NCBI RefSeq assembly: GCF_004217135.1
Contig: NZ_SHKK01000001.1
Coordinates: 682,001-746,000 of the forward strand
DNA length: 64,000 nucleotides
Source: Micromonospora violae
GTDB taxonomy: Bacteria > Actinomycetota > Actinomycetes > Mycobacteriales > Micromonosporaceae
Direction: 5' to 3'
Shown: piece after piece, positions 21,023 through 52,006 of the stretch
Layout: each line of letters opens with the position of its first letter
Position numbering within the stretch: the stretch's first letter is position 1
Notes under the pieces: model-generated
The model's input: only the letters and a program-made list of their open reading frames with translations
Told to the model about the DNA's origin: nothing
Database searches by the model: none
Translations under genes and position numbers: made by a program

Positions 21023-21117
21023 GAACAGATGTACGACAGCTTCCGGCCCGTTGCAGCATCCCGTCGGGACGGACCGTCGAACCGGAGGTGACGTAGCCTT
21101 CCGCCATCATCAAACGG

Positions 21118-32705: not shown

Positions 32706-34016
32706 GTGCGTGCGCTGATGGAGCGCGGGTGGCTGTTCGCGGAACGCCGCCGGCGTCTGGAGCGGAAAATCGCCCTGTACAACGAGCCGTTGTCCCGCGC
32801 GGAGATCGAGCGGATTCAGGTCGAGCGCTTCAACCGAATCTGGGCGTACTGCCTGACGCAGGTGCCGTTCTACCGGTCCTGGCGCAAGGAGCACGGACTC
32901 CCCAGCGGCATCTCTCGGCCGTCGGACCTGCACTACTTCCCGGTGCTCGACAAGGAACTGCTGATCAGCCGCTCTGCGGAGGTCTTCGCGCAGGCGTCGC
33001 CGAAGCAGGTCTACAGCACCGGTGGAAGCACCGGCCAGCCGACCAGGTTTCCGCGCGGTCGCAGCGAGTCGACCGACCGGTGGGCGAACAACTATCTCGG
33101 CCGAGCATGGCGGGGAATCCGACCGTTCGAGCCGCAGGTCCTGCTGTGGGGGCACTCGCATCTGTTCGGCGACGGGATGGCCAGCCGGGTCGCCCGGTTG
33201 AAGCGGGACGTCGCGGACCGACTGGTGAACATCACTCGACTGAACGCCTACGACCTCAGCGACCCCGCGCTGCGCGGTCACTACGAGGAGATCCGGTCCC
33301 GGCAGCCGGTGATGCTGGTCGGGTACACCTCGGCGATCTTCAAAGTTGCCCGCTACATCGAGCGCAACGGGCTGGACCTGGGCGACATGAGTCGGCTGCG
33401 GGCGGTGATTCTGACCGCGGAGACGGCCAGCGACGCGGACATCGCACTGATCGAACGGGTCTTCGGAGCGAGTGCGGTGATCGAGTACGGTGCCGCCGAG
33501 ACCGGTTTGATGGCGATGTCCCGTGCGCAGGCGCGGCCCATCCAGGTCATCTGGGACAGCTACATCTGTCTCGTCGACCAGGACGGCTCGCTCGCGGTCA
33601 CCACCCTCGACGACCGTCTGTTCCCACTGGTCAACTACGCCATCGGCGACCAGATCGAACCGACTGACGTCGTCGACGGCAACGTGTTGAAGATCCATTC
33701 GATACTCGGTCGACAGCAGGAAATCGTCCAGGTCGGCTCGGCGAGCGGGATTCTCGACCTGTCGCCGATCCTGCCGGTGCACATCCTCAAGACCCTCCCG
33801 GGCATCGTCGGCGTGCAGTTCCGTCAGGAGCGACCCGACGCGCTGCACATCAACGTGCAGGCCGACCACGAGCTCGACCTGGAAGCCGTGCACCTGTACT
33901 TCGTTCGCGAGCTGCGCAAGGACCACCCTGATCTCAGCGCGGACTCGATCACCTTTCACCAGGTGGCCGATCAGACACGCACCCGCGCCGGCAAGCACGC
34001 GCTGTTCGTGTCCTGA
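32706..34016 (+). CDS. CapK/PaaK-like adenylate-forming enzyme of the glycan locus
   Basis: The 436-residue protein starts at GTG 32706 behind AGGAGG (32690-32695). It resembles phenylacetate-CoA-ligase-like proteins (CapK group) found in polysaccharide clusters: the P-loop-like YSTGGSTGQPTRFPRG, the VGYTSAIFKVARYI core, VIEYGAAETGLMAM and FPLVNYAIGDQIEP. These should activate a carboxylate as an adenylate, possibly for acyl or amide decoration of a sugar, but no member in such clusters has a firmly known reaction as far as I know. It is the leftmost gene of the surface-glycan locus and is divergent from the carboxypeptidase gene. Confidence 0.85.
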   Translation: MRALMERGWLFAERRRRLERKIALYNEPLSRAEIERIQVERFNRIWAYCLTQVPFYRSWRKEHGLPSGISRPSDLHYFPVLDKELLISRSAEVFAQASPKQVYSTGGSTGQPTRFPRGRSESTDRWANNYLGRAWRGIRPFEPQVLLWGHSHLFGDGMASRVARLKRDVADRLVNITRLNAYDLSDPALRGHYEEIRSRQPVMLVGYTSAIFKVARYIERNGLDLGDMSRLRAVILTAETASDADIALIERVFGASAVIEYGAAETGLMAMSRAQARPIQVIWDSYICLVDQDGSLAVTTLDDRLFPLVNYAIGDQIEPTDVVDGNVLKIHSILGRQQEIVQVGSASGILDLSPILPVHILKTLPGIVGVQFRQERPDALHINVQADHELDLEAVHLYFVRELRKDHPDLSADSITFHQVADQTRTRAGKHALFVS

Positions 34017-34043
34017 TCGTCGCCGCGCGGCCAGCCCAACGGT

Positions 34044-35387
34044 CTACCTACCGACGAGGTCGCCGGACGACGCCGGCTGACGCTTCTGGTCAGACGCGAC
34101 CGGGCGGGGGCGGTGGGATCCGCGCCGCCGATGCCGACGGGTCACCGTGGCCAGCAGCAGGGCCGCCGCCACCAGCATCTCCGCGACGGGGGTCGCGGCG
34201 GCGGCGCCTGTCGGTCCGAGCGTCGCCGCCTGGATGAGGAGCGCGCCGCCCACCAGCACCGCGATCGACAGGCCGAGACGACTGGCGGCGACGTATTTCC
34301 CGTCGCCGATGCGGTTGAGCGCAACGGCGCGGTTCATGGTCGTGAACGGTAGGGCGAGGGCCAACAGTTGCAGCCAGAGCGCCGATTCGGGTATCGGCAG
34401 CGAGAGCAGGCTCGAGGTGAGCCAGGGCGCGGTGGCGATGACCCCGGCGGCGATGATGGTCGCGCCGACGACGGCGATCATCTCGCTGTCCCGGTTGATC
34501 GCCTGTCGGGGACCGAGGTTGTGCCGCCGCCGGGTCCGCAGCGCCATCGGCACCCGGAGTCCGCTGAAGGTGACGGCGACCAGTGCCTGGTAGATGTTGA
34601 CCAGGGCCCCGTAGCAACCGACGACGTGGGGGCTCGCCACCAGGGAGAGGGCGATCGTGCTCGCACGGCCCGTGAACGCCTCGGCGAGACTGTACGTGTA
34701 CAGCCGGCGGCTCATCCCGAAGGCGCGCCCGGCGGCGCGCAGCGACAGCCCTCTCCACATCGCAGGCGCGGCGGCCGGCCCGTGGCAGGCGAGGACCTCC
34801 GTGCTGAGCAGGTAGGTGGCCGCACCGACCAGCAGTGCGGTGGTCAGTGGCAATCCGGCGAGCAGCAGGACCATGGAGAGAAGCCGGGTGCTGACGATCG
34901 CCGCCGAGGCCGCGACGAAGCGCATCTGTCGGGCGAGGTCGCCGAAGCGCAGGTCGGCGAGGCTGTTGAAGATCATGACGCCACCGGCACTGAGCAGGGC
35001 GACCAGGCCGTACTCCGCGTGGATGTAGAACGCGGCGATCAGCAGGGTGGCGGTCGCCATGGCCGGCACCGCCACCAGCAGCCGCTGACTGTGTGCCGCG
35101 CGACGCTCCTCGTCATTGCCGGACACGTACAACAGGGAGGACCCGCCCATGATCAGGTTGGCTACCCAGGTCAGCGCCGCCGTCATCACGCTGTAGGCCG
35201 CGATCTCGGCGGTCTGGCCCTGTCTCGCGCTGTACGCGAGGATCCCGGCGTTCAACAGGCCGCTCACCAGGCTGGACACCGACGCCACGACCGTGGTGGA
35301 CCGCACCCCCGGCCGGCGACTTCCCGGCGAGCGGAGAGGCTCGGTGGGCTCGGCGAGCGTCTGCTCCGACGTCGACCGTTCCTTCAA
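34044..35387 (-). CDS. Wzx/MATE-like polysaccharide flippase
   Basis: The protein has 447 residues with about twelve hydrophobic segments and little else, the pattern of the oligosaccharide flippases that turn undecaprenyl-diphosphate-linked repeats to the outer face of the membrane. TTG 35387 is preferred because AAAGGA sits 6 nt before it; the GTG five codons earlier has no ribosome-binding site. The C-terminal tail is Arg-rich and cytoplasmic. It is transcribed with the glycosyltransferase gene upstream (gap about 48 bp). Weak sequence conservation makes the family name less secure than the fold. Confidence 0.8.
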   Translation of the reverse strand: MKERSTSEQTLAEPTEPLRSPGSRRPGVRSTTVVASVSSLVSGLLNAGILAYSARQGQTAEIAAYSVMTAALTWVANLIMGGSSLLYVSGNDEERRAAHSQRLLVAVPAMATATLLIAAFYIHAEYGLVALLSAGGVMIFNSLADLRFGDLARQMRFVAASAAIVSTRLLSMVLLLAGLPLTTALLVGAATYLLSTEVLACHGPAAAPAMWRGLSLRAAGRAFGMSRRLYTYSLAEAFTGRASTIALSLVASPHVVGCYGALVNIYQALVAVTFSGLRVPMALRTRRRHNLGPRQAINRDSEMIAVVGATIIAAGVIATAPWLTSSLLSLPIPESALWLQLLALALPFTTMNRAVALNRIGDGKYVAASRLGLSIAVLVGGALLIQAATLGPTGAAAATPVAEMLVAAALLLATVTRRHRRRGSHRPRPVASDQKRQPASSGDLVGR

Positions 35388-35435
35388 TCGTGGTCCTTTC
35401 ACGGCGGCGGTGCGCTGCCCGCCGCCGGGCGCGGG

Positions 35436-36704
35436 TCAGCGTTCCGCGACTGTCAACCGGATCCGGTCGAGGATGTTCGGCCCGGCGGTCTCGGCCCGCC
35501 AGGACCGATAGGCCTGACCCGCCGCGCGGCGTGCCGCAAGCCGTTCCTCCTGGCCGCGCTGGGCGAACTGGTCAATCTGGTGAGCCAGAGTCGCCACCGT
35601 GGCATCCGTCAGGACGACTCCACCGCCGGCCCGGAGCACCGGGCTCCAGGGGGTCTCGTCCGAACAGATCACCGGGCACGACGCGGAGAGGCTCTCTGCG
35701 ATGACGTGGCCGAAGTTCTCCCCCTGGGTCGGAAAGACGAACATGTCGTACCGGGCGAAGGTGGACCGGACCGCCTGGTGGGCGAGTTCTCCCCGGTAGG
35801 AGAACGTCACGGACGCCGGCAACCGCTGGGCGAGCAGTTGGCATTCGGCCCAATAGGGCCGGTCCTCAATGGGGCCGTAGACGTCGAACACCACCGGCCG
35901 CGTCACCAGCGTGAGGGCCTCGATCACCTTCGCCAGATTCTTGATCGGGTTGATGCGACCGATGAAAACGAGACGCGGAGAACCGCCGTTGTCGGCCGGG
36001 GGGATCGGCTCTGCCGGAAGTGACACCTCGTTGCGTCGGGTCTCGATCCGGGCCCAGGGAAAGAGGTCCCTGATCAGTTGCGCTTCGTGCGGGTTGGTGG
36101 CGTGCCACTGGACCCGGCGCCGCCTGAGAATGGGTCGCCAAACGCTGAGGAACAAGCGCTTCTTGCGGCTCTTGACCCCAAGTGCGCTCGCTGCCAACTC
36201 ACCTCTTGGCGCAACGAGTATCCGTTCGACCCGGATGATGCGTGTGATCGCGGCGAGAATCGGCAGAATCGACGACATCGCCCAGAGGCTGTTGACGTAG
36301 AGCAGGTCGAAAGGGCTCGATCGGAGCGTTTTCAGCAATGCGTACCACTGCCGGAGTCGGCCTGGATCAAGGTAGTAGATGCGGGCCGGACCGCGGCGCG
36401 CCCAGTGACCCGACAGGCCGGGATACGGCTCCGTCGAGCCGAGGTCGCGGTCCCTCGTCACCATCGTCACCTCGATCGACGGCGATACGGTGTCGAGCAG
36501 TTGGGCGACGGATCGGACCGGACCGCCGGCCCGAAATCCCGGTTCGAAGAAGTCACACGTCAGCAGGACGCGGTACGGCGGCACGGGTGATTCGGTGGGA
36601 TGGGCGACACCACCTGGTTCGGGAACCATGCGGGAGGAATTGTGAATTGCGTTCGCGGCTGCGGGGGTGCCGTCGCCGCGCAGGACCTCGAAGGTGTCAG
36701 CCAC
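35436..36704 (-). CDS. GT4-family glycosyltransferase
   Basis: A GT-B enzyme of up to 422 residues: the N-terminal half begins YRVLLTCDFFEPGFRAGGPV, then LVAPRGELAASALGVK in the acceptor-side domain. The C-terminal half has LVFIGRINPIKNLAKVIEAL and FVFPTQGENFGHVIAESLSASCPVICSDETPW, the nucleotide-sugar site with its ExFG-like glutamates. It should add a sugar to the lipid-linked repeat; the donor is unknown. The GTG at 36704 has no ribosome-binding site, and the first 40 residues look non-conserved, so ATG 36629 may be the true start. Confidence 0.87.
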   Translation of the reverse strand: MADTFEVLRGDGTPAAANAIHNSSRMVPEPGGVAHPTESPVPPYRVLLTCDFFEPGFRAGGPVRSVAQLLDTVSPSIEVTMVTRDRDLGSTEPYPGLSGHWARRGPARIYYLDPGRLRQWYALLKTLRSSPFDLLYVNSLWAMSSILPILAAITRIIRVERILVAPRGELAASALGVKSRKKRLFLSVWRPILRRRRVQWHATNPHEAQLIRDLFPWARIETRRNEVSLPAEPIPPADNGGSPRLVFIGRINPIKNLAKVIEALTLVTRPVVFDVYGPIEDRPYWAECQLLAQRLPASVTFSYRGELAHQAVRSTFARYDMFVFPTQGENFGHVIAESLSASCPVICSDETPWSPVLRAGGGVVLTDATVATLAHQIDQFAQRGQEERLAARRAAGQAYRSWRAETAGPNILDRIRLTVAER

Positions 36705-36859
36705 GTTCGGCTAACGATGGCGGCGTGGATCGGTGACGGTGCCGTATCGGTCCGAGATGATGCGGCAAAGCCCGGTCCGAAATTCGTGAGACAAGCGGCC
36801 GAATGGCATATCCGAATATATGCTCCGCTCTCATGGAGTCATTGACAGGGGCGCGCGCG

Positions 36860-38308
36860 ATGGCAGGTGGGAATCGAGGCGTGCACCCGCGTCACGCGCG
36901 CGGTGTGCCCGACGATCGCCTGCGGACCCCGCCCAGCGGCCTCTGGCGCCTCCTCCTCGGGCTGGCCTGGCTCGGGCTGGGCGTGGCGTGCCTGCTTGTC
37001 CAACCGAACCCCTCGGCGGCGTGGGACAGGGACGGAACCCTCGCGATGAGCTTCCTGGCGACCCTCTTCGGCGCGTGGGTGTTCTGGCGAGACGGCGGTC
37101 GCCGGATCACTGCGGTGGGGCTCTACAACCTTGCCTTCGCGTTCTTCGTCGGCTTCAGCGGGCTCTACCAGACGGTGAAGGCGTGGACGCTCGATCCCGG
37201 CATTCCGCTCTTCACCGCCGTCGCCATCTGCTACTTCGCCCAGGTGGTGACGTGGTTGCTGTTCTGGAGCGGCGATGGCTCGCGTCGGCAGCCGACGAAC
37301 GCCGGGCAGGCGGACGGCAGGACGGCCGGTTGGGCGGTGAAGTCGGGCCTGATCCTGCTGGTGCTCGCCGTGGCCATGGCAACGGTCGCGCCGGATTCGA
37401 TGCCGGTGGCCAACCCGATCGGCTTTGTCGGCGTCGTGCTCCTCGCCGTGGGGCTGTTGCGGGGGCCGATGGCACACCACACGTTCCTGTGGGGCGTGGT
37501 TCTCCTCATCGCCTTCGCGGTCTACTTCACCTATCTCTTCACCGGCTTCGGACGGATTGTCGTCGGCACGTTGGCGCTCGCGCTGCTGGTGATGTCGGCC
37601 CACAGTGGTCAGCGGTCGTACACCAAGCTCCTCATCCTCGGCGGGGCGGCCCCGGCGCTGCTGTTCCTTGCCGGGCTTCGTGCCACCGCCTCGCAGGGCT
37701 CACCGTTCACGGTCGACCAGGATGGATTCGGGTCCGCGATCAGTCCGCTGCGCGCGTTCGCCCAACTCCTGGCCCTGGATGAGGTGGGGCTGCTGCCCCG
37801 GGGCTGGGGGGAGACGTTTGCCAATGCGGCGGTCGGTCTCGTGCCCCGCGCCATGTGGGAAGGCAAACCGATCGGCTTCGGCGCCGACCTCGTCGCGTTG
37901 CTGTCACCGGAGCTGGTTGGCACGGGGCACTCCGCGGCGGCGCTCGCGCACGGGGAGTGGTTGTACAACTTCGGCGTGCTGGGGCTGGGGTTGATGGTTC
38001 CGGTGGTGGGCCTCGCCGTCCGCTTCATCGACAGGCTGCTGGCCTGGGCCACGTCCAGCCCACTCACCACGCCGTACGCCGTGGGCGCCTACGCCGGGGC
38101 GATCATCATCGCGGTCGGTCTGTTCGACCTCCTCTGGGTGGGCAGCTTCACCTACGTGGTGCGTGGCGGTGGCCGACTGCTGGTGCTGGCCGCGGTGATC
38201 CTGGTGATCGGTTGGCGGGTCGCGGAACCGACGATCGCGAACCACCTGGCGGGCCCACGTCGGCCGCCCGTGGTCCGCCGTCCCCAGCCGGCGGCGCGTA
38301 CCCGATAA
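36860..38308 (+). CDS. Wzy-like O-antigen/oligosaccharide polymerase candidate
   Basis: An integral membrane protein of about 482 residues with ten to twelve hydrophobic segments and a longer polar loop near 290-370. No soluble domain and no strong motif is seen, as usual for Wzy polymerases, which join flipped repeat units outside the membrane. ATG 36860 is preferred because an ACAGGGG site lies 9 nt upstream; an AT-rich region with a TATATG hexamer near 36820 may hold the promoter. Identification rests on topology and on its place between flippase and sugar-nucleotide genes. Confidence 0.7.
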   Translation: MAGGNRGVHPRHARGVPDDRLRTPPSGLWRLLLGLAWLGLGVACLLVQPNPSAAWDRDGTLAMSFLATLFGAWVFWRDGGRRITAVGLYNLAFAFFVGFSGLYQTVKAWTLDPGIPLFTAVAICYFAQVVTWLLFWSGDGSRRQPTNAGQADGRTAGWAVKSGLILLVLAVAMATVAPDSMPVANPIGFVGVVLLAVGLLRGPMAHHTFLWGVVLLIAFAVYFTYLFTGFGRIVVGTLALALLVMSAHSGQRSYTKLLILGGAAPALLFLAGLRATASQGSPFTVDQDGFGSAISPLRAFAQLLALDEVGLLPRGWGETFANAAVGLVPRAMWEGKPIGFGADLVALLSPELVGTGHSAAALAHGEWLYNFGVLGLGLMVPVVGLAVRFIDRLLAWATSSPLTTPYAVGAYAGAIIIAVGLFDLLWVGSFTYVVRGGGRLLVLAAVILVIGWRVAEPTIANHLAGPRRPPVVRRPQPAARTR

Positions 38309-38456
38309 CCGCGGCACGCGAGCCGAACCAGTCATTCCTTTAGTCCCGTTTTCAGGCGTTTCTCCAACGAGGTTTCGTTCGTTGCGGCAGTTGTGGCCGC
38401 ACTACGGCCTCGACCAGGACGGCCTACGCGAGCCACCACGAACGAACGGAGCGTCA

Positions 38457-39497
38457 GTGAGTTACTTGACCACCGGACGCCGGGTCCTGATCACCGGCGG
38501 CACGGGTTCCTTTGGACAGACGATGGTGCACCGGCTCCTCGACTGCGGCGTCAGTGAGGTCCGGGTGCTCAGCCGGGACGAGGCCAAGCAGGACGCGATG
38601 CGTCGGCTGCTCGGCGACGAGCGGGTCCGCTACTACGTCGGGGACATCCGGGACTACGACTCGGTGCTCAAGGCCAGCCGGGGCATCGACTACATCTTCC
38701 ACGCGGCCGCGCTCAAGCAGGTGCCGTCGTGCGAGTTCTTCCCCCTTGAGGCGGTCCGGACGAACGTGCTGGGCAGCAGCAATGTCGTCGAGGCCGCCGA
38801 ACGCAACGGTGTCGGCTCGGTGGTGGCGCTCAGCACCGACAAGGCCGTCTACCCGGTGAACGCGATGGGCATGAGCAAGGCGATGATGGAGAAGGTCATC
38901 CAGGCGCACGCCCGCAACAACCCGAACAGCGCCACCACCGTCTCCTGCGTGCGCTACGGCAATGTCATGTACTCGCGCGGGTCGGTGATCCCGCTCTTCA
39001 TCGAGCAGATCAAGGCCGGTCGGGCGCCCACCGTGACCGACCCGGCAATGACCCGGTTCGTGATGTCGCTGGCCGACTCCGTCGAACTGGTCGAGCACGC
39101 GTTCCAGAACGCCCGCCCCGGTGACATCTTCATTCGTAAGGCCGCGGCGTGCACCGTCGGCGACCTGGCCGAGGCGGTGTGCCAGCTCTTCGATGTGCCC
39201 GCCAAGCTCGACGTGATCGGCATCCGGCACGGCGAGAAGCAGGCCGAGACGCTGGCCAGCCGGGAGGAACTCGTACAGGCCGAGGACTTCGGGGACTTCC
39301 TCCGGGTGCCGCTGGACGGCCGCGACCTCAACTACTCGCTCTACGTCTCCGAGGGCGAGTTCGGCGACGGGCTGACCGAGGACTTCAACTCGTCGAACGC
39401 GCCGCAGCTCGGCGTACCCGAGATCGTCGAATTGCTGAAGACGCTGCCCGAGGTGCGGGCGGAGCTGGCCCTGCGGGACCCGGTGTTGGCGTGCTGA
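38457..39497 (+). CDS. capE: CapE/WbjB-type UDP-GlcNAc 5-inverting 4,6-dehydratase
   Basis: The 346-residue SDR enzyme matches CapE/FnlA/WbjB, which converts UDP-GlcNAc into UDP-2-acetamido-2,6-dideoxy-4-hexulose sugars on the L path. The NAD loop is VLITGGTGSFGQ, followed by YYVGDIRDYDSV, HAAALKQVPSCEFFP, and ALSTDKAVYPVNAMGMSKAMMEK, in which the usual catalytic tyrosine position is methionine, as is typical for this dehydratase subfamily. GTG 38457 has a GGAG site. It is followed without a gap by capF (7-bp overlap) and capG (4-bp overlap), the same order as in S. aureus capEFG and P. aeruginosa wbjBCD. Confidence 0.95.
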   Translation: MSYLTTGRRVLITGGTGSFGQTMVHRLLDCGVSEVRVLSRDEAKQDAMRRLLGDERVRYYVGDIRDYDSVLKASRGIDYIFHAAALKQVPSCEFFPLEAVRTNVLGSSNVVEAAERNGVGSVVALSTDKAVYPVNAMGMSKAMMEKVIQAHARNNPNSATTVSCVRYGNVMYSRGSVIPLFIEQIKAGRAPTVTDPAMTRFVMSLADSVELVEHAFQNARPGDIFIRKAAACTVGDLAEAVCQLFDVPAKLDVIGIRHGEKQAETLASREELVQAEDFGDFLRVPLDGRDLNYSLYVSEGEFGDGLTEDFNSSNAPQLGVPEIVELLKTLPEVRAELALRDPVLAC

Positions 39498-40630
39498 GGC
39501 TCGCCGTCACCGGCGGTGGCGGTTTCCTCGGCTGGCACGTCCGCGTGCTGCTCCGGGCGCTGGGGTGGCCGGAGCCGACCGTGCTCAGCCGCGCCGACCT
39601 GGCCGACCCCGGCGTGATCGCGGCGAAGATCGCCGGCCACGACCGCCTGCTGCACCTGGCCGGCGTCAACCGGGGAGAGCCGGCCGAGGTCGCCGCCGGC
39701 AACGTCCAGCTCGCCACCCAACTCGCCGATGGGCTCAAGCACTGCGCGAACCCGCCGGCGCGGGTGGTCTACGCCAGTTCGGTGCAGGCCGGCAACGGCA
39801 CGCCGTACGGCGACGCCAAGGCCGCCGCCGCGCGGGTGCTGGCGGACACCGGCGTCGACCTCGACGACGTGTTGCTGCCGAACCTGTACGGCGAGCACGG
39901 CCGGCCGTACTACAACTCGGCGGTGGCGACCTTCTGCCGGCTGCTCGCCGAGGGCGGGCGGCCCGATGTGCACGCCGATCGCGAGCTGAGCCTGGTGCAC
40001 GTCACCGACGCGGCCGCGCGTCTCATCGGGGTGCCCGGCGGTGGCTCGTGGGATCCGGCCATGCCGGCGCTGCGCATCGGCGTGCAGGCGCTGGCGGACC
40101 GGCTCACCGGGATGGCCGCGACGTACCGGACCGGGGAGATCCCCTCCCTGTTGAGCCGGCACGACGTGCGGCTGTTCAACACGTACCGGTCGCACTGCTT
40201 CCCGGCGCACTATCCGATCACGCTGCCCCGGCGGGCCGACGCGCGCGGCGAGTTGGTCGAGACGGTCAAGGCGCACGGCGGGGCGGGGCAGACGTTCTGT
40301 TCCACCACCCGTCCGGGAATCACCCGGGGAGAACATTTCCACCTGGCGAAGGTGGAGCGGTTCGTGGTGCTGCGCGGCTCGGCCGAGATCAGCCTGCGCC
40401 GGGTCGGCGACCCCGAGGTGCTGCGGTTCCCGGTGAGCGGCGCCGAGCCAGCCCTCATCGACATGCCCACCATGTGGGCGCACAAGCTGGTGAACACCGG
40501 TACGGACGAACTGGTGACGATGTTCTGGACCAACGAGCTCTTCGACCCGGACTGGCCGGACACCTGGGCCGAGCCGGTGGAGGCGGCCCGGCCGGCGGCA
40601 CTGGTGGCAGCAGAGGGAGGACGGGCATGA
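39491..40630 (+). CDS. capF: CapF/WbjC-type bifunctional epimerase-reductase with C-terminal cupin
   Basis: In UDP-L-FucNAc synthesis CapF epimerises the CapE product and reduces the 4-keto group. The 379-residue protein has an N-terminal SDR part (LAVTGGGGFLGWHVRV, ASSVQAGNGTPYGDAK) and a C-terminal metal-binding cupin (about 250-370) with ITRGEHFHLAKVERFVVL. Both domains of the family are therefore complete. GTG 39491 overlaps the end of capE by 7 bp, and the end of this gene overlaps capG in ATGA, so translation of the three should be coupled. Confidence 0.93.
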   Translation: MLRLAVTGGGGFLGWHVRVLLRALGWPEPTVLSRADLADPGVIAAKIAGHDRLLHLAGVNRGEPAEVAAGNVQLATQLADGLKHCANPPARVVYASSVQAGNGTPYGDAKAAAARVLADTGVDLDDVLLPNLYGEHGRPYYNSAVATFCRLLAEGGRPDVHADRELSLVHVTDAAARLIGVPGGGSWDPAMPALRIGVQALADRLTGMAATYRTGEIPSLLSRHDVRLFNTYRSHCFPAHYPITLPRRADARGELVETVKAHGGAGQTFCSTTRPGITRGEHFHLAKVERFVVLRGSAEISLRRVGDPEVLRFPVSGAEPALIDMPTMWAHKLVNTGTDELVTMFWTNELFDPDWPDTWAEPVEAARPAALVAAEGGRA

Positions 40631-41751
40631 CCCGGATCATGACGGTGGTCGGCACCCGACCCGAGATCATCAGGCTCTCCCGGGTGATCGCTCGACTCGA
40701 CGACACAGTGGATCACACGCTGGTGCACACCGGGCAGAACTGGGACAGCGCCCTGTCGGACGTGTTCTTCAAAGAGCTGCGCGTGCGCGAGCCGGACCGG
40801 TTCCTCCGCGTCGACACCTCGTCGCTGGGGCGGGTCCTCGGCGGGGTACTTGTCGGCATGGAGGCGGCGATCGCCGAGGAACGGCCCGACGCGCTGCTGG
40901 TGCTCGGCGACACCAACAGCTGCATCGCCGCGCTGATGGCCCGCCGGATGCGGGTGCCGGTCTACCACATGGAGGCCGGCAACCGGTGCTTCGACCTGAA
41001 CGTGCCGGAGGAAACCAACCGCCGGCTGGTCGACCACGTGGCCGACTTCAACCTCGTCTACACCGAACACGCCCGGCGCAACCTGCTCGCCGAGGGCCTG
41101 CACCCGCGCCGGATCCTGCACACCGGCTCGCCCATGCGGGAGGTGCTGGAGCACTACCGGGAGCCGATCGCCAACTCGACCATCCTGCGTCAACTGGAAC
41201 TCACCTCGGGCCGCTACTTCCTGGTCAGCGCACACCGCGAGGAGAACGTGGATCACCCCGAGCGCCTGCGGAGGTTGCTGGACTGCCTGGTCGCGGTCCG
41301 CAACCGGTGGGGCTTCCCGGTACTGGTCTCCACGCATCCGCGGACCCGTAAGCGGCTGGAGGCGCTGGCCCCGGATGCCACCGCACTGGACGGCATCGCC
41401 TTCCACGACCCGTTCGGGCTGCTCGACTACGTACATCTCCAGGCCGAGGCCTACTGCACCCTCTCGGACAGCGGCACGATCAGCGAGGAGGCCGCCATCC
41501 TCGGCTTCCCCGCGGTGACACTGCGCGAGTCGATCGAACGCCCCGAGGCGCTCGACGCCGGCGGCATCATCATGACCGGCCTCGACCCGCAGGGCGTGGT
41601 CGAGGCGGTCGAGGTGACGGTGGCGCAGGTCGCCGCCGAGGGGGTGCCGTGCCCGGTCGACTACCAGGTGCGAGACACCTCCCGACGGGTGGTCGACTTC
41701 CTCCTCTCCACCGTGCGCCGCCACCACGACTGGGCGGGCATCCGCCGCTGA
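40627..41751 (+). CDS. capG: CapG/WbjD-type UDP-sugar 2-epimerase
   Basis: The 374-residue epimerase is of the WecB family; the CapG/WbjD members finish UDP-N-acetyl-L-fucosamine by C2 epimerisation. The N-terminal VVGTRPEIIRLS, MEAGNRCFDLNVPEETNRRLVDHV (active-site region), VSAHREENVDHPERL and the C-terminal LSDSGTISEEAAILGFPAVTLRESIERPEA are all conserved. The NRRLVDHV stretch and FDLNVPEE are typical of FucNAc rather than ManNAc makers. It ends before two strong terminator hairpins and faces the WbpM-like gene. Confidence 0.94.
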   Translation: MTRIMTVVGTRPEIIRLSRVIARLDDTVDHTLVHTGQNWDSALSDVFFKELRVREPDRFLRVDTSSLGRVLGGVLVGMEAAIAEERPDALLVLGDTNSCIAALMARRMRVPVYHMEAGNRCFDLNVPEETNRRLVDHVADFNLVYTEHARRNLLAEGLHPRRILHTGSPMREVLEHYREPIANSTILRQLELTSGRYFLVSAHREENVDHPERLRRLLDCLVAVRNRWGFPVLVSTHPRTRKRLEALAPDATALDGIAFHDPFGLLDYVHLQAEAYCTLSDSGTISEEAAILGFPAVTLRESIERPEALDAGGIIMTGLDPQGVVEAVEVTVAQVAAEGVPCPVDYQVRDTSRRVVDFLLSTVRRHHDWAGIRR

Positions 41752-41761
41752 CCAGCTGGAC

Positions 41762-41803
41762 ACCGGGGCTGGCGATCACGAACCTGTGGTTGCCAGCCCC
41801 GGT
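41762..41803. terminator. Terminator hairpin 1 after capG
   Basis: accggggctggc (41762-41773) pairs perfectly with 41792-41803 across an 18-nt loop, starting 10 bp after the capG stop. Confidence 0.75.
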
Positions 41804-41882
41804 CTCTGTGCGCTGTTCCGGTCCGGGTTCCGGCTCCGGCCGCGCACGGAGGGTGGGCCGGCGCTGGCCGTCCCGGCGAAAG

Positions 41883-41920
41883 CGGAACGGGGTGACGCCG
41901 CGCGGCGTCACCCCGTTCCG
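41883..41920. terminator. Terminator hairpin 2, perfect 18-bp palindrome
   Basis: Arms 41883-41900 and 41903-41920 are exact complements with only 2 nt between, so the effective loop is about 4 nt. It lies 31 bp beyond the stop of the convergent WbpM-like gene and likely serves both strands. Confidence 0.85.
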
Positions 41921-41951
41921 TTCCACCGCAGCAGCGGCGGGGCCGATCAGC

Positions 41952-43826
41952 TCAGTGCGACTGCAGGGGTACGCCCCGCGGGCCCTTGACCACCGGACCG
42001 ACCGGCTGCGCGCAGAGCAACGCGAGGTGCTCGACGATCTTCGCCGCGTCGTCGTACGGGTCGAGTCCGCTGACCTCTATCGGGTCGAGCGGCGGAACGG
42101 CCACGTGTGACACCAGCGGATGGAACGGCCGAGTGTCCATCTCGCCGGTGCCGAGCAGGTCTTCGTGCAGCTTCTCGCCGGGCCGCAGGCCGGTGTAGAC
42201 GATCGGAACGGAGCTGGACGCCTGGTCGGCCATCTGCCGGGCCAGGTCCGTGATCCGGACCGGCTCGCCCATGTCGAGCACCAGTGCCTCACCGTCCTGC
42301 CCGATTTCGGCGGCCTGGAGCACCAGGTGGACGGCCTCCTGGACGGTCATCAGGTAGCGGGTGACGTCCGGGTGGGTGACGGTCAGCGGCTTGCCCGTCT
42401 CGATCTGCCGCTGGAAGGCGGTCACCACCGAACCGCGGCTGCTCAGCACGTTGCCGAACCGGACGCTGAGGAACGTCCCCGGGAAGCGGGACGCGGCGTG
42501 CGCCGTCAACCGCTCCGTGATCCGCTTCGAGTAGCCGAGGACGCTGATCGGATCGGCCGCCTTGTCAGTCGAGATGTTGACGAACTTCGCCACGTCCCGG
42601 CAGGCGTCCAACACGGAGAGCGTGCCCCAGACGTTGGTCTTGATGGCCTCGCCCGGGTGCCGCTGCAGCAACGTCAGGTGCTTGAGCGCCGCCGCATGAA
42701 AGATGATCTCCGGGCGGCGCTCCCGGATGATCCGTCGGATGCCCTCGTCGTCGCGCAGGTCGGCGAGGATCAGCTCCGGACCGTCCAGCATGGCCCGCCC
42801 GGCGAGCGACATCTGGAGGCTGTGCAGGGCCGACTCGTCCCGGTCCAGCATCATCAGCTCACCCGGGTTGGCCTTCATCACCTGACGGCAGAGCTCCGAG
42901 CCGATCGAACCGCCGGCGCCGGTGACCAGGATCCGTCGTCCGGTCAGGCTGTTGCTGCTCAGCGGCAGGTCGCCGACCACCTGACGGCGGCCGAGCAGGT
43001 CGTCGATCTGCACGTCCCGGACGTCGGTGACGGTGATCCGGTGGTCGACCAGGTCCCGCACCGGGGGCAGCACCTTGAAGACCGCGCCGGCCTCAAGAGT
43101 GGCCCCCCGGATCTGGCGGATCAGCGCGGCGTCCGCGTTGGCCACCGAGAAGATGACGGCGCTGGCGCCGGTACGCCGGACCGAGGCGGCGACATCGTTG
43201 CGTCCGCCCAGCACGCGGACCCGGCCGATGCGCAGGTCCCGCTTGTCAGGGTCGTCGTCGAGCGCGCCGACCGGTAGGTACCGACCGCGCGGGTCGCTGA
43301 GCATGGCCCGGAGCAGCCCTTGGCCGGCGTCTCCCATCCCGAACAGCAGCACCGGCGTCGACGACCGGACGTCCGGCCGCATGGCGAGGTCGTGGCGGTG
43401 CCGGTACACGAACCGGGCGCCGAGCATGAACAGCAGGGCGAGCGCGCCGCCGACCAGAGGGGTGCTCGCCGGAACCGGTCGCTCGCCGGAGGGCAGCAGG
43501 CCGAGCAGCACGATAGCGGCCGTCGTGATGGTGGTGCCGGCGAGGCCCTGGACCTCCTGAAGGCTGCCCAGCGGGTGTCGTCCGGAGTAGAGCCGGCGCA
43601 GCGCCGCCACCGCCACGTGGATGATCGCCGCGGCCATTCCGACCGTTGCGGCCCGGCCGAGTTGGCCGGGAGGGAGCTGGAACTCGAATCGGGTCCAGGC
43701 GGCTGCGACTGAACCGCCGACCCAGGCGGTGGTGTCGGCCGCGAGAAAGCCGATCGCCCGGCGGCGCGCCTTGGCTCGCCGCGTCCGCTGGTCCAACCGC
43801 TCCGTGTGCTCCGTGTCCTGCGGCAT
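41952..43826 (-). CDS. WbpM/CapD-type membrane UDP-GlcNAc 4,6-dehydratase
   Basis: A 624-residue protein of the WbpM/FlaA1/CapD large form: four membrane segments in the first 140 residues, a Rossmann CoA-binding-like domain (VLLFGMGDAGQGLLRAML), then the SDR domain (ILVTGAGGSIGSELCRQV, HAAALKHL, NISTDKAADPISVLGYSKRI, VLSSRGSVVTAFQRQI). These enzymes make UDP-4-keto-6-deoxy-GlcNAc, the precursor of UDP-QuiNAc and, by reduction and epimerisation, UDP-D-FucNAc. Where most WbpM proteins have methionine at the SDR tyrosine position, this one has leucine. It is the last gene of the minus-strand part of the locus and faces capG. Confidence 0.92.
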   Translation of the reverse strand: MPQDTEHTERLDQRTRRAKARRRAIGFLAADTTAWVGGSVAAAWTRFEFQLPPGQLGRAATVGMAAAIIHVAVAALRRLYSGRHPLGSLQEVQGLAGTTITTAAIVLLGLLPSGERPVPASTPLVGGALALLFMLGARFVYRHRHDLAMRPDVRSSTPVLLFGMGDAGQGLLRAMLSDPRGRYLPVGALDDDPDKRDLRIGRVRVLGGRNDVAASVRRTGASAVIFSVANADAALIRQIRGATLEAGAVFKVLPPVRDLVDHRITVTDVRDVQIDDLLGRRQVVGDLPLSSNSLTGRRILVTGAGGSIGSELCRQVMKANPGELMMLDRDESALHSLQMSLAGRAMLDGPELILADLRDDEGIRRIIRERRPEIIFHAAALKHLTLLQRHPGEAIKTNVWGTLSVLDACRDVAKFVNISTDKAADPISVLGYSKRITERLTAHAASRFPGTFLSVRFGNVLSSRGSVVTAFQRQIETGKPLTVTHPDVTRYLMTVQEAVHLVLQAAEIGQDGEALVLDMGEPVRITDLARQMADQASSSVPIVYTGLRPGEKLHEDLLGTGEMDTRPFHPLVSHVAVPPLDPIEVSGLDPYDDAAKIVEHLALLCAQPVGPVVKGPRGVPLQSH

Positions 43827-44041
43827 GTACTGGCTCCCTGTCCCGTCTTCCGACTACTTCCACCGCCAGGCAGAAGGAGCTTTGCGCTCCTTGTCCTTGT
43901 TACAGGGAGAAACGGCATCGTTGGCCGTTTTCGGGTTATCTGAGCTGAAGGTCCGGCTATCCTATTGGCCGCCCAGTGCGCGTGGCCGCCGTCGCGGACA
44001 GCGCCGCCTCCGTCCGGCTTCGTCCACCGGTGCCGCGGTGG
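43827..44041. other. Intergenic leader of the WbpM-like gene
   Basis: In these 215 bp no coding frame is credible. An 8-bp-class hairpin (aaggagc..gctcctt near 43875-43897) and an A+T-richer patch around 43905-43965 lie upstream of the dehydratase start, suggesting its own promoter and a structured leader. Confidence 0.4.
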
Positions 44042-45292
44042 TCACCGACCGGCCGGAACGTGGTTCCGGGCCGCCTTCACCAGGTGCTCGGCGAGGGCGA
44101 CGCTGCCGACCCGCTCCGAGAGCCGCTCCAGGTAGAACTGCCGGCCGCTGCGGCCCAGCTCCTCGCGCTTCTCGGCACCCAACTCGTACATCCGGCGGAT
44201 CGCGTCGGCCAGGGCGTAGCTGTCGCCGGGCGGAGCGACGAACCCGGCGCCGGACGCGTCGACGAGCTCGGCCGCGTCACCCGCCAGAGCGGCCACGATG
44301 GGACGGCCGCACGCCAGGGTGCTCTGCACCTTGCTGGGCATGATCGAGCGAAGGAAAGGCTGGTCGCGCAAGGAGATCAACTGGACGTCCCCGAGCGGCA
44401 TCAGTTCGACCATCCGCTCGATCGGCTGCTGGCCGAGGAAGACCACCCGGCCGGGTTCGTACCGTGCGGCCGATTCGCGTAGCCGCCCCTCTTCCACACC
44501 GCTGCCCGCGAACACGAGCGTCAGGTCCGGGATGTCGGCGAGATGCTCCAGTGCGTCGACGGCGACATCGAGGCCCTGGAGGTTTCCCATGCTTCCGGCG
44601 TACATGACGACGAAGCCCTCCAGCCCGAGGGTCGCCGCCAACTCAGGATCAGCTGGTCGTGGGCGGAACAGGCGCTCGTCGACCCAGTTGTAGACGACCG
44701 AGAGTTTGTCCCGGGGGACGCCGCGGCTGTTCAGGATGTCGGCCATACCCGGCGCGATGACGGCCACCGACGACGCGTTGCGATGCGCCGAGTCGCAGAA
44801 CCGGGTGAGCAACCGGACTATCAGGTCGGTGCGACGGCCAGGGCGGACGTAGTCGCTCTGCGCCAGGGTGTCCGGCCAGAGATCCTCCATCAGGATCACG
44901 TACGGGCGTCCGTGCAGCCAACGGGCCAGCATCGCCGGCAGCGTCACAGTTGCCGGCGAGGAGTAGACCAGCCACACGTCGACCTTGCGGAGCAGGTCCA
45001 ACCGGACCGCCGCCGAGGCCGCGAAGCTGAGATAGTTGGCAGCCCGTCCGACTGCCGACCGGTCGTGGCTGGGCACCAGCGGCACCCGGTGCACCGAGAC
45101 GCCGTTCATCATCTCGAACTGGTACGGGCGTAGCCGGTAACCCGGAGACAGCCGGCCGGACGGGTAGTTCGGGAACCCGGTGAGCACATGCACCTCGTGC
45201 CCGAGTGCGACGAGCGACCGGCTGATGATCCCCGGAAGGACGGCGGAGCCACCCTCCGGGTCGTACCACTGCGTGATGATCCCGATTCTCAC
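44042..45292 (-). CDS. WbuB/WbjE-like glycosyltransferase (putative L-FucNAc transferase)
   Basis: The GT4 enzyme of 416 residues starts IITQWYDPEGGSAVLPGIISRSLVALGHEVHVLTGFPNYP, like the WbuB/WbjE and CapL group, which transfer L-FucNAc to a lipid-linked first sugar. Further marks are LMEDLWPDTLAQSDYV, VVMYAGSMGNLQGLDVAVDAL, VVFLGQQP and MPSKVQSTLACGRPIVAAL. A role as the transferase of UDP-L-FucNAc made by capEFG is inferred from the group and the locus. GTG 45292 has an imperfect ribosome-binding site, and a 24-bp tandem duplication lies directly upstream. Confidence 0.87.
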   Translation of the reverse strand: MRIGIITQWYDPEGGSAVLPGIISRSLVALGHEVHVLTGFPNYPSGRLSPGYRLRPYQFEMMNGVSVHRVPLVPSHDRSAVGRAANYLSFAASAAVRLDLLRKVDVWLVYSSPATVTLPAMLARWLHGRPYVILMEDLWPDTLAQSDYVRPGRRTDLIVRLLTRFCDSAHRNASSVAVIAPGMADILNSRGVPRDKLSVVYNWVDERLFRPRPADPELAATLGLEGFVVMYAGSMGNLQGLDVAVDALEHLADIPDLTLVFAGSGVEEGRLRESAARYEPGRVVFLGQQPIERMVELMPLGDVQLISLRDQPFLRSIMPSKVQSTLACGRPIVAALAGDAAELVDASGAGFVAPPGDSYALADAIRRMYELGAEKREELGRSGRQFYLERLSERVGSVALAEHLVKAARNHVPAGR

Positions 45293-45296
45293 CGCG

Positions 45297-45344
45297 CTGC
45301 CACCGCAGCCGGAGCAGCCGCTGCCACCGCAGCCGGAGCAGCCA
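45297..45344 (-). repeat. Exact 24-bp tandem duplication upstream of the glycosyltransferase start
   Basis: Two identical 24-bp units (45297-45320, 45321-45344; each begins gctgccaccgcagccgg) abut the GTG start, within 5 bp. No gene covers them. Confidence 0.9.
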
Positions 45345-45423
45345 AGGAACCGAGCAGGCCAGTCGAGCCTGACACGGGGGTGAGAGTCATGGAGAACCTT
45401 CCTGTTGGGGCGGGGCTACTGCG

Positions 45424-46515
45424 TCAGCGACCGGTTGTGCGCGCCGCGCTGCTCGTCTCGACCGGTTGCGAGTCACCTGTTCGGGGCCGCGCCACGCCGT
45501 CAGCGTTCGGTGCCGACGCGGATGTCGGCGGGGTGCCCGCCGTCCGCAGCCGCTCCCATGCCTCGGGGTGCAGCTGGGGTGCCAGCCCCTGGTCGGCGAG
45601 CCAACCGGGCGTCTGCCGCTTGCCGAACAGGAGCATGTCGACCCGACGGGCGTGCGCGTTGGCGTTCAGACTCGTCCGGCCGTACGCGGCGAGGCAGCGG
45701 GTCGCGTACCGCGCCACCCGACGCGGGATGTGCCGTGGCTCGCGGCCACCGAGAAGGCGGAGCAGAAGCCCGGTTGTCATGCCGTTGTGGGGCTGGACCA
45801 CGATGGGCGGCACCGGGCCGTCGACGAGCCCGAGGTGGGCGATCGCCGCGGCGACATCGTCGATGAGGACCTGGGGCGTCGGCGCGGTACCGTCCCCGGC
45901 GACGCAGCTCAACGGCGACTGTGCGAGCCGGATGAGCGCCCGGGTGTTCGGCCGATCCACATCATGGACCCAGGTCGACCGGTAGATGACCGAGTCGATG
46001 TGGTCCTCGCGCTGGAGCAGGCGCTCGCCGATCGCCTTGGAGCGCGAGTACGGCGAGAAGGGCAACGTCCGCGGTGTCTCGTCGAGATCCATGGCGCCCT
46101 GCGCCGCAGCCGAACTGACGTGGACCAGCCGGCCGGCGTTGACCAGCGTGGCGGCGCGGGCGACCAGGGTGGGGAGCAGTGAGTTGCCGCCGTACAACGC
46201 GGCACTGTCCGGGGCGGACCCGTTTGGCAGCCCAGCCGTGTTGATCACGCTGTGCGCACCGTCGAGCTGGGCGGCGAGGGCCTCGACGACGTCTCGCTGG
46301 AGATCCGCCGGCACCGACTCGCTTCGGAGCGCCTCGACCAGCGGCCACGCCAGGCGTGGTGTGGTGACGAGATGGACCTCGGCGCCCCTGCGGCGCAGCT
46401 CGGCGACGACCGCGCGGCCGACGAAGCCGCTGCTGCCGAGCACCGCGACCTTCTTGACCTGTCGATTCCCGGCGCCGCCCAGGTCACCGGCTCGTTGAGC
46501 TGACAGTTCTGGCAT
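45424..46515 (-). CDS. WbpV/WbjF-like NAD-dependent sugar-nucleotide reductase
   Basis: The SDR enzyme of 363 residues has VAVLGSSGFVGRAVVAEL (nucleotide loop), HVSSAAAQGAMD, and catalytic Tyr-Lys in YSRSKAIGERLL. Its place next to a WbpL-type transferase and a WbpM-type dehydratase is the classical wbpV-wbpL-wbpM order, where WbpV (or WbjF, CapN) reduces the 4-keto intermediate to UDP-QuiNAc or UDP-D-FucNAc. The stereochemistry cannot be read from sequence. The last 40 residues are a disordered tail. ATG 46515 has a GGAAGGAAG site and overlaps the upstream transferase gene by 32 bp. Confidence 0.83.
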   Translation of the reverse strand: MPELSAQRAGDLGGAGNRQVKKVAVLGSSGFVGRAVVAELRRRGAEVHLVTTPRLAWPLVEALRSESVPADLQRDVVEALAAQLDGAHSVINTAGLPNGSAPDSAALYGGNSLLPTLVARAATLVNAGRLVHVSSAAAQGAMDLDETPRTLPFSPYSRSKAIGERLLQREDHIDSVIYRSTWVHDVDRPNTRALIRLAQSPLSCVAGDGTAPTPQVLIDDVAAAIAHLGLVDGPVPPIVVQPHNGMTTGLLLRLLGGREPRHIPRRVARYATRCLAAYGRTSLNANAHARRVDMLLFGKRQTPGWLADQGLAPQLHPEAWERLRTAGTPPTSASAPNADGVARPRTGDSQPVETSSAARTTGR

Positions 46516-47521
46516 GGATCGTTCTTCCTTCCGGTGCGGGTTGGGCCCGTGAAGCGGTGAGCCAGGCGGGGGCGGTGAGGTAGGCGGCGAGGATCGCGAG
46601 GGCCGTGGCGTCCAGTGCGGCCCGCACGAGTGGCCCGCTGAACGACGCGACGACCAGGCAGCCGGCCACTGTCGCCCCGGCGATAGCGGTCAGCACGGTG
46701 ACCCGCTGATGTGACCGACCAGCGTCCGTCAGCCGCTGATAGGCGTGGTTGCGGTGTGGGCGGTACCAGGCCTCGCCCTTACTGATGCGGCGCAGGAGCG
46801 TCCAGCCGGTGTCGGCGAGGTACAGCGCGAGGGGCGCCACGGCCGCCTCCGGCGGTACGCCGCGAACGATGGCGTACGCGGCGATCGTGCTGAGTGCACC
46901 GCCCAGGGCGTACGAGCCGACATCACCGAGAAAGACCTTCGCGACCCAGGCGTTCCAGGGGAGAAACGTCAGGGACGCGGCCGCGATCAGACTGCCGGCC
47001 GCGGTCAGGAGCGGGAGGTCCGTGAACACTCCGAGTGCGGCGTACACCGCTCCACCGAGGATCGCGTGCACCGTCGAGATGCCGTTGATGCCGTCCATGA
47101 AATTGAAGGCGTTCACGTACGAGGTCAGCCACGCCGCCAGGGCGAGTACGAGGAGCACGTGGACGTACCACGCCTGCCCGCCGGGCACCAGGACCAGTCC
47201 CGTGGCGACACCGGCGAGCAGTTGCAGGAGCAGGCGCAGGCGGATCGGGGCGCCCCAGAGGTCTTCCAGGAGCCCGATCGCCGCGAAGAAGAGCAGCGGC
47301 ACGGCGATGGATCGCGCGTGCTCGTTGAGGAGAAGTGCGAGCCCGGCCGCCGCGGCGACGCCCACGCCGCCGCCGCGCGGGATCGGCGTGCTGTGCGAGG
47401 ACCGCTCGGACGGTATGTCGAGAACGGCGGCCGATTTCAGCAGGCGAAGGATCAGCGGCTGCAACAGGGTGCCGACGACGAGTGCGAGCACGATTCCGCC
47501 TGCGAGCGGAACATTCAGCAC
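46484..47521 (-). CDS. WbpL/WecA-like initiating sugar-1-phosphate transferase
   Basis: The 345-residue integral membrane enzyme of the MraY/WecA family (about ten helices) transfers a HexNAc-1-phosphate to undecaprenyl phosphate and so starts the glycan. The signature motifs are SERSSHSTPIPRGGG, the acidic LLEDLWGAP, NAFNFMDGINGIS, KVFLGDVGSYALGG and the basic HRNHAYQRLTDAGRSHQRVT. In P. aeruginosa WbpL accepts UDP-D-QuiNAc/FucNAc. Here the adjacent WbpV/WbpM-like genes point to one of these sugars as the first residue. GTG 47521 has an AGGA site. Confidence 0.93.
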   Translation of the reverse strand: MLNVPLAGGIVLALVVGTLLQPLILRLLKSAAVLDIPSERSSHSTPIPRGGGVGVAAAAGLALLLNEHARSIAVPLLFFAAIGLLEDLWGAPIRLRLLLQLLAGVATGLVLVPGGQAWYVHVLLVLALAAWLTSYVNAFNFMDGINGISTVHAILGGAVYAALGVFTDLPLLTAAGSLIAAASLTFLPWNAWVAKVFLGDVGSYALGGALSTIAAYAIVRGVPPEAAVAPLALYLADTGWTLLRRISKGEAWYRPHRNHAYQRLTDAGRSHQRVTVLTAIAGATVAGCLVVASFSGPLVRAALDATALAILAAYLTAPAWLTASRAQPAPEGRTIHARTVSSTSR

Positions 47522-47811: not shown

Positions 47812-47882
47812 TCACCGTCGTGGTGCGGCAGGCCCGGTGGTGGAACCCGGCTCGCCGGTCCCGTCGTCCAGCAACCGGGTGA
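47640..47882 (+). CDS. Orphan short frame with a strong ribosome-binding site, possible gene remnant
   Basis: AGGAGG lies 8 nt before ATG 47640, which opens an 80-codon frame (MDKRPFRVFGVRRAAE...). The first 15 or so codons look like a real start, but the rest has no recognisable pattern and runs into the 3' end of the convergent hypothetical gene. It may be a truly small protein or the 5' stump of a gene whose body was lost when the locus edge was formed. No similarity to a known family is seen. Confidence 0.3.
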   Translation: MDKRPFRVFGVRRAAETAHAGVEDVRQPGAGVDLVSQSAAPNGTAAAHRRCDGAAGLVTVVVRQARWWNPARRSRRPATG

Positions 47883-49379: not shown

Positions 49380-51836
<2,457 letters not shown>

Positions 51837-51993
51837 GATCTCGATCCGCCTTCGACTCGATCCGCCCTCAGAGAGCGGGTACGCCTGCATTCTGCCGGGC
51901 GGCCCGGGACGCTGTCGCCGCGCCCGGCCGGCGCGGGGGACGAACCGCCGCACCCGGCCGGGGTGACCGGCGGCGGTCCGGTCAGGCGTGGGC

Positions 51994-51999
51994 TAGCGT
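51994..51999 (+). promoter_or_regulatory. -10 box (TAGCGT) for leaderless dgt
   Basis: TAGCGT is followed by 7 nt and ATG 52007, with no ribosome-binding site. Confidence 0.6.
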
Positions 52000-52006
52000 G
52001 GCGATC

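Follow-up and report, generated by a model that had tools for sequence, protein, structure and literature searches.

The stretch of the Micromonospora violae chromosome analyzed here (64,000 bp, called the window below; its host genome is 7.14 Mb in a single contig) carries at 32,706–47,521 a gene cluster that we read, with a probability of about 0.8, as a Wzx/Wzy-type heteropolysaccharide locus that is one haplotype of a fixed, serotype-like chromosomal site whose cassettes are exchanged by recombination. Its product would probably have a core of D-N-acetylquinovosamine (D-QuiNAc) or D-N-acetylfucosamine (D-FucNAc) followed by L-FucNAc, judging from the sequences of the enzymes. Gene content, flank conservation and cassette exchange can be read directly from genome comparisons: the flanks are conserved at one chromosomal site in the genus, and the gene content between them is more variable than that of the flanks. 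A preliminary description, made from the window's sequence alone, had named the genes of this region, and the named set, in which the polymerase is a tentative call, is borne out by the agreement of open reading frames (ORFs), codon-position GC and family profiles. It had also predicted a FucNAc surface polymer for this strain; the gene set for L-FucNAc agrees with this prediction, but the polymer would belong to one haplotype of a variable site, and the analogy drawn with the Staphylococcus aureus capsule fails on ManNAcA and linked chain-length genes.

Gene content of the locus

The center of the locus is a tightly overlapping run of three genes on the + strand, capE (38,457–39,497), capF (39,491–40,630) and capG (40,627–41,751), which according to ORF analysis and codon-position GC overlap by a few bases. 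The true capF and capG starts fall within longer ORFs of the original listing and have been corrected; a fused CapF-CapG ORF of 728 amino acids (39,565–41,751) was rejected, since it begins with an out-of-frame extension and the capG start is at 40,627. The S. aureus proteins are the best matches of the trio among solved structures. CapE, a predicted UDP-N-acetylglucosamine (UDP-GlcNAc) 4,6-dehydratase/5-epimerase of the FnlA type, matches CapE in PDB entry 3vvb (E 4.8e-119) and scores 421 bits against the NCBI FnlA model TIGR04130, below its curated cut-off of 730; its catalytic site reads MGMSK, an MxxxK signature in place of YxxxK, and PMC3699295 gives MxxxK as characteristic of the CapE subfamily. 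CapF, the putative 3-epimerase/4-reductase, has Epimerase and C-terminal PF14667 domains and is matched over its full length in the PDB by Cap5F entries only (E 1.1e-46). For CapG, the putative 2-epimerase whose predicted product is UDP-L-FucNAc (PF02350), the top match is CapG in PDB entry 7ya2 (E 4.6e-105). The CapEFG route to UDP-L-FucNAc is supported by these sequences; the enzyme trio of the preliminary description stands, and its product is a prediction from homology.

Four genes follow on the – strand. The first (41,952–43,826) encodes a WbpM/PglF-like membrane 4,6-dehydratase of 624 amino acids with three N-terminal transmembrane-like segments and domains PF02719 and PF13727; it matches WlaL entries (PDB 5bju, E 2.6e-64), WlaL being, we take it, Campylobacter PglF. 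Next come a WcaI/WbuB-like glycosyltransferase of the GT4 family that is the predicted L-FucNAc transferase (44,042–45,292; 172.7 bits against the WcaI family PRK10307, whose cut-off is 276), a WbpV-like 4-reductase of the short-chain dehydrogenase/reductase family (45,424–46,515; PF01370, PF04321, with YxxxK present), and a WbpL-like initiating sugar-1-phosphate transferase (46,484–47,521; PF00953, E 1.6e-23) with ten transmembrane-like segments and a weak MraY match.

The left part of the locus contains an adenylate-forming enzyme (AFE) gene (32,706–34,016, +), a Wzx-like flippase gene (34,044–35,306, –, its start chosen by codon score), a second GT4-family glycosyltransferase gene (GT4a; 35,436–36,704, –), and a candidate Wzy polymerase gene (36,881–38,308, +, start uncertain). 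GT4a (PF00534, E 2.5e-17) is predicted to add a third sugar, and its start is uncertain, codon score favoring 36,584; both GT4 transferases are clear by family profile. A Pfam scan of the flippase gave no match; its AlphaFold model, built from eight sequences, has a pLDDT of 81 and a MOP fold, and a Foldseek search with the model returned MATE, WzxE and MurJ entries first (best E 3.5e-6; query TM-score 0.6–0.68 for the best four). Modeling thus places the protein in the MOP superfamily as a Wzx-like flippase, as had been proposed. The polymerase candidate has about 11 transmembrane-like segments, counted on the longer ORF 36,803–38,308. The AFE, called CapK-like in the preliminary description, has weak matches to the phenylacetate-CoA ligase families and a long-range resemblance to these ligases. 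It carries STGGSTGQP, YGAAE and a C-terminal GK, presumably the usual adenylation motifs, which are invariant in four of four aligned sequences (its own included), and it may decorate the polymer.

Orthologs of the genes of this locus lie in identical order in M. inaquosa (locus L034) with 84–96% identity, which excludes chance ORFs; codon-position GC and the gene overlaps agree.

A polymorphic chromosomal site

On the left the locus is bounded by an NAD-kinase-family gene (NADk; 28,310–29,242, –; Pfam NAD_kinase), which has a match at E 1e-60 in 101 of 121 genus genomes, and on the right by a gene with an HD domain (51,998–53,518, +; PF01966), present in 46 of 51 genomes chosen for their few contigs. 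Wherever both markers are on one contig, which is the case in 37 genomes, they lie 7.0–47.5 kb apart (median 24.5 kb), and the glycan genes between them vary among genomes of the genus. Four NADk rows with 44–49% identity (G309, G288, G254 and the second row of G175) were taken as paralogs and dropped; counting the 49% row of G309 would put its markers at a distance of 773 kb, the sole exception. Among 76 CapF copies, 44 share a contig with an accepted NADk, two are on a different contig from it, and 30 are in genomes without an accepted NADk row. All 44 of the first group sit at most 36 kb from NADk, and of the 18 copies that can be placed relative to both markers, 17 lie between them and one (in genome G271) lies outside.

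Forty-six intervals were gene-called and clustered, namely that of M. violae itself, the 37 with both markers, and eight with HD only, for which a fixed 40 kb beside HD was taken. The NADk-positive, HD-negative genomes G181, G283, G289, G318 and G319, as well as G309, were left out of the intervals, and stretches L114–L117 were left out of the analysis. Clusters were annotated from one representative each, and 40 clusters were scanned, the last ten listed and the rarer ones not being among them. The named loci (L series) and the genomes (G series) overlap in part (L048 with G205 and L074 with G312, for example) and so are not independent samples. Thirty-seven of the 40 representatives match sugar-nucleotide, glycosyltransferase, flippase, polymerase or acyltransferase families, the exceptions being c24, c16 and c26.

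Conservation was gauged in ten hand-chosen close relatives with an ortholog threshold of at least 70% identity. Tex (49,380–51,953, –; Tex domains; in all 46 intervals), HD, NADk and a conserved 155-amino-acid protein (47,812–48,279, –) have orthologs in all ten, and an APH-family gene (48,303–49,193, –; PF01636) in nine. The AFE, Wzx, GT4a and Wzy genes have orthologs in none, and CapE, CapF and CapG in eight, six and eight, the CapE count including a second CapE-like family. Expressed as the fraction of conserved gene-genome cells, the values are 0.61 for the left flank (13 genes), 0.51 inside (17 genes, flank markers included) and 0.93 for the right flank (the nine window genes after 53,519); flank genes came from a simple GC filter, so that false genes may be among them, and the contrast, which was made against the adjacent flanks only, is clear on the right and smaller on the left. 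The leftmost gene of the interior, encoding an M14 carboxypeptidase (29,334–32,441, –; PF00246), is a variable border gene whose cluster occurs in 15 of the 46 intervals. The left flank has a second variable patch at 17,758–24,023, in which gene 22,156–22,680 has an ortholog in none of the ten relatives and gene 22,677–24,023, for which a Pfam scan gave no match, in one.

Interior gene content is only weakly tied to relatedness: the Spearman correlation between interior Jaccard similarity and flank identity is 0.16 (703 pairs from 38 intervals), and the median Jaccard value is 0.21 in the 29 of the 703 pairs whose flank identity is at least 94%. The G302 interval (L129) is nearly empty, its five genes being NADk, a DUF389 cluster member, an APH-like fragment, Tex and HD, and this genome is a natural strain without the locus. 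GC content was tried as a sign of foreign origin and is a weak one, with a median of 0.715 inside (800 genes) and 0.734 in the flank markers (123 genes).

Exchange of cassettes

There is order in the variation among the 46 intervals. CapE and CapF are found in the same 23 intervals and a second CapE-like family (c23; PF02719 and PF08485) in eight others, with no overlap; c23 is joined by an RmlD-like reductase (c65) in seven of its eight intervals, and CapG is present in 31, which are exactly the union of the two groups. By sequence this pattern matches the two routes outlined in PMC6467956, FnlA-FnlB-FnlC to L-FucNAc and FnlA-QnlA-QnlB to L-QuiNAc. The initiating transferases alternate in a similar way. 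An initiator of the PF02397 type occurs once in each of 40 intervals and a WbpL-like one in two others, none has both, and four have neither; of these four, G302 is the nearly empty one, while G213, G249 and G281 have an aminotransferase and gave no PF02397 or WbpL-like match. Of the 40 PF02397 intervals, 31 also have a DegT aminotransferase (c2), and PglD-like acetyltransferases occur too (c34 in 12 intervals, c35 in 8), a set like that for bacillosamine. Another haplotype family carries a Wzy_C protein (c50).

The L-sugar transferase tends to go with the type of initiator. Close orthologs (92–93%) of the window's WcaI-type enzyme are present in four of 52 family loci (L034–L037), all with WbpV and WbpL, and in many PF02397 haplotypes a GT13 gene lies between capF and capG, which suggests that each transferase fits its own acceptor and donor. 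The WcaI-WbpL link is not strict, since the WbpL-like genes in L061 and G227 lack the window's WcaI type.

Two left modules are each found with both types of right module. That of the window, AFE-Wzx-GT4a-Wzy, is joined to the WbpV/WbpL module in M. violae and in M. inaquosa L034, and to PglD-PglE-PF02397 with a different glycosyltransferase between capF and capG in L039 and L045. The other (c21, c26, c47, c32, c48, c53 and c61) occurs with WcaI-WbpV-WbpL in M. arida L036 and M. parva L037, and with PF02397 modules in G313 and G274. Comparison of the sequences thus implies recombination, which is needed for all four combinations to exist. The DNA is correspondingly mosaic: L036 is closest to G313 on the left (93%) and to M. 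violae on the right (89%) up to the flank, and L039 is 97% like G313 from capE to capG, its left module being nearest that of M. violae (86%, the next about 70%). These identities were taken per alignment piece, so that the breakpoints are approximate.

It might be argued that the region is a neutral insertion site at which ordinary divergence or assembly noise is seen, and not a selected polymorphic surface locus; the patchiness that extends into the left flank (0.61) and the almost empty interval of G302 would fit such a view. We think it rather unlikely, because 37 of the 40 cluster representatives are of glycan-type families, and because the single initiator in 42 of the 46 intervals and the mutual exclusion and two-by-two recombination of modules indicate functional order and not noise.

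Some of the other genes between the markers deserve mention. FemAB/GNAT-like proteins (PF13480) of clusters c68 and c71, in six intervals each, lie beside the initiator modules, and aminoacyl or acyl decoration by them is possible. A protein of cluster c120 in the G304 interval (L125–L126) and in L061 looks by eye like an S-adenosylmethionine synthetase; inside a glycan locus it hints at methylated sugars.

Predicted pathway and product

The chemical steps, the surface location of the product and the selective reason for its diversity are what we infer from these genes. The WbpM-like and WbpV-like enzymes would make UDP-D-QuiNAc (or UDP-D-FucNAc) from UDP-GlcNAc, and the WbpL-like enzyme would load this sugar onto undecaprenyl phosphate. 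CapE, CapF and CapG would make UDP-L-FucNAc, from which the WcaI-like transferase would add L-FucNAc, and the second GT4 enzyme would add a third sugar; one initiator and two transferases are most simply explained by a unit of three sugars. The MOP-fold flippase would move the unit outward and the candidate Wzy would polymerize it, giving from the lipid-linked oligosaccharide a surface heteropolysaccharide that an unlinked LCP enzyme would probably anchor to the wall. Flippase, transferases and polymerase would come from the left cassettes; the right ones would provide the first sugar, the enzyme that loads it and the transferase for the L-sugar. The two kinds of cassette vary independently of each other, and in the haplotypes compared they are bridged by shared capEFG and WbpM genes.

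As the preliminary description had stated, family scans show no N-acetylmannosaminuronic acid (ManNAcA), chain-length or attachment gene in the locus; neither a UDP-sugar dehydrogenase family nor a second 2-epimerase is among the scanned locus genes, to which that search was confined. The genome has seven LCP matches, all of them elsewhere and none near the locus, so attachment would be unlinked, and its nearest Wzz match, which is below cut-off, is at 948,066, more than 200 kb away. Three PF02397 matches are also found elsewhere in this genome. For S. aureus type 5 capsule, PMC7831098 gives the order of the lipid intermediates as D-FucNAc, L-FucNAc, ManNAcA and reports that the proximal FucNAc is enough for recognition by LcpC.

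The main rival to a polymer is protein glycosylation, in which the whole lipid-linked oligosaccharide would be handed over to secreted or membrane proteins, either in place of polymerization or in addition to it. Bacillosamine- and QuiNAc-type reducing ends are common in protein glycosylation, and such ends are predicted for many intervals (PglD, PglE, PF02397); the polymerase call is weak as well. There is also a precedent, in that an actinobacterial LCP enzyme, LcpA of Actinomyces oris, is described in PMC7831098 as glycosylating a protein. We nevertheless judge this rival unlikely, if worth keeping in view, as five loci keep a multi-spanning polymerase-like gene together with that of the flippase, a Wzy_C protein (c50) occurs in another haplotype family, and no oligosaccharyltransferase was seen in the locus, the only part of the genome examined for one. 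A second rival, that the sugars end up on a small secreted metabolite, or in a teichoic-like wall polymer made by another route, and that the flippase and polymerase candidates are incidental, we regard as very improbable. Micromonospora makes many glycosylated metabolites, and the lack of a linked attachment gene would suit this idea, but no polyketide or peptide synthetase family is among the scanned locus genes, an initiating lipid transferase with a MOP-fold flippase is the logic of a polymer, and the site carries polymer-type sets in relatives.

Several observations weigh against a polymorphic Wzx/Wzy locus as we have described it, or limit how far it can be taken. On the chemical side, the polymerase assignment is tentative: a multi-spanning ORF corresponds to the polymerase candidate of the preliminary description, but the family match is a single sub-threshold hit in one of six orthologs (TIGR04370, 24.7 bits; cut-off 40), and the structural model is so poor (pLDDT 50.6) that identification by fold was set aside. 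A search of the PDB gave no close solved relative of the WbpV-like reductase, and homology by itself is, according to PMC4514872, insufficient to tell the functional specificity of such enzymes. The proposed initiation by WbpM, reductase and WbpL is supported in its logic, with either D-QuiNAc or D-FucNAc as the sugar. Matches in the genome include no linked chain-length gene or LCP near the locus. On the side of the site, the left flank is patchy itself, and some close pairs share most of their interior (Jaccard 0.91 for G282/G322, 0.81 for G187/G205 and 0.72 for G223/G305). The P value of 0.0019 for the exclusivity of CapE+CapF and c23 is not a true probability, as the 46 intervals share ancestry, and in G271 the exclusivity holds for the interval only, a CapF lying 17.7 kb outside it. 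The sample has one genome per species, which puts exchange within species outside its scope.

A wider proposal builds on the polymorphic-locus reading: a genus-wide, serotype-like surface-glycan site in which whole cassettes change places, a change of the reducing-end sugar (bacillosamine-type or D-QuiNAc/D-FucNAc) comes with an initiator of a different superfamily, L-FucNAc is switched with an L-QuiNAc/L-N-acetylrhamnosamine type, and unlinked attachment enzymes have to accept all of these. We give this somewhat better than even odds. Diversifying selection by phages or plant hosts would be the likely driver of the diversity. The genus comprises antibiotic producers and plant endophytes; if the proposal is true, it has a cassette-swapping site throughout, which would be a genetic handle on what its cells show to phages and plant partners and would reveal, as a natural experiment, which sugars at the reducing end are tolerated by an actinobacterial wall-attachment enzyme. 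The locus would also give predictions of rare amino sugars, strain by strain, from sequence alone.

Distribution in related genomes

A search of relatives for the gene set, proposed earlier as a check, showed CapF in many of them and WbpL in far fewer. CapF is present in 75 of 160 genus genomes and 58 of 250 family genomes (M. violae included in both), so the idea of a strain-specific oddity was rejected; a WbpL-like protein occurs in only 9 of the 160 genus genomes, seven of these also with CapF. The top named relatives of the window's CapF are from Micromonospora, with 94% for M. inaquosa, M. saelicesensis and M. arida. In the survey of CapF loci, 80 of 86 confirmed loci were kept and 110 loci were compared. 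Outside the family, Microbacterium, Cryobacterium, Tessaracoccus and others have the CapEFG genes in one run with WbpM-like and WcaI-like ones, and the compact order WbpM-WbpL-WbpV-WcaI-CapEFG is seen in L087, L091 and L096.

In Verrucosispora sioxanthis two CapF loci (L070 and L112) are separated by about 27 kb, and the extra CapF of G271 (C1:3443014–3444108) is about 17.7 kb outside the NADk-HD interval; some species may thus have a second, neighboring glycan locus. Elsewhere in the window, ARAGORN called an odd tRNA with a four-base anticodon at 9,141–9,237, which lies inside a predicted coding gene and is probably a false call.

Comparison with known systems

Neither the enzymes nor the general type of locus is new. 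The window resembles the S. aureus type 5/8 capsule loci in CapE, CapF and CapG, which are its best matches among solved structures, but the likeness proposed earlier fails beyond them, since neither ManNAcA nor linked chain-length genes were found. The locus lacks ManNAcA, chain-length/kinase and LCP genes, and its initiator is of the polytopic PF00953 type, whereas S. aureus CapM is of the PF02397 type.

The Pseudomonas aeruginosa O11 locus (wbjB–F, wbpL, wbpM) presumably encodes the same functions, FnlABC, a WbuB-like glycosyltransferase, a 4-reductase, WbpL and WbpM. All these families are present in the window by profile; the O11 comparison of the preliminary description is tentative, being one of gene functions and not of aligned proteins. 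The window differs in being from an actinomycete, which has no lipopolysaccharide, in its divergent gene orientation and in the added AFE, and a different flippase, polymerase and third transferase are expected.

Two further pathways have likely counterparts at this site in relatives. The UDP-L-QuiNAc set (FnlA, QnlA, QnlB), which is not in the window's own haplotype, corresponds to the eight intervals in which c23 with CapG, seven of them with the RmlD-like reductase, replaces CapE+CapF. The Pgl bacillosamine module (WbpM/PglF-like, DegT, PglD-like, PF02397) forms the right-hand module of many relatives, and in the window the WbpV-like and WbpL-like genes stand in its place.

Several groups of capsule systems in Actinobacteria have already been reported from a genome survey (PMC5542703). 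Among the matches listed from the open-licence literature, none describes a polymorphic glycan locus in Micromonospora or a polymer of FucNAc, QuiNAc or bacillosamine from this genus.

Most of the serotype-like loci that are known come from pathogens or gut commensals. At such fixed sites (E. coli O-antigen, pneumococcal cps and Acinetobacter K loci) a variable interior lies between conserved flanks and cassettes recombine, and the Micromonospora site is like them in all three respects. It differs in its host, a filamentous, soil- and plant-associated actinomycete, and in that two unrelated initiator superfamilies alternate at one site, which is its least usual trait.

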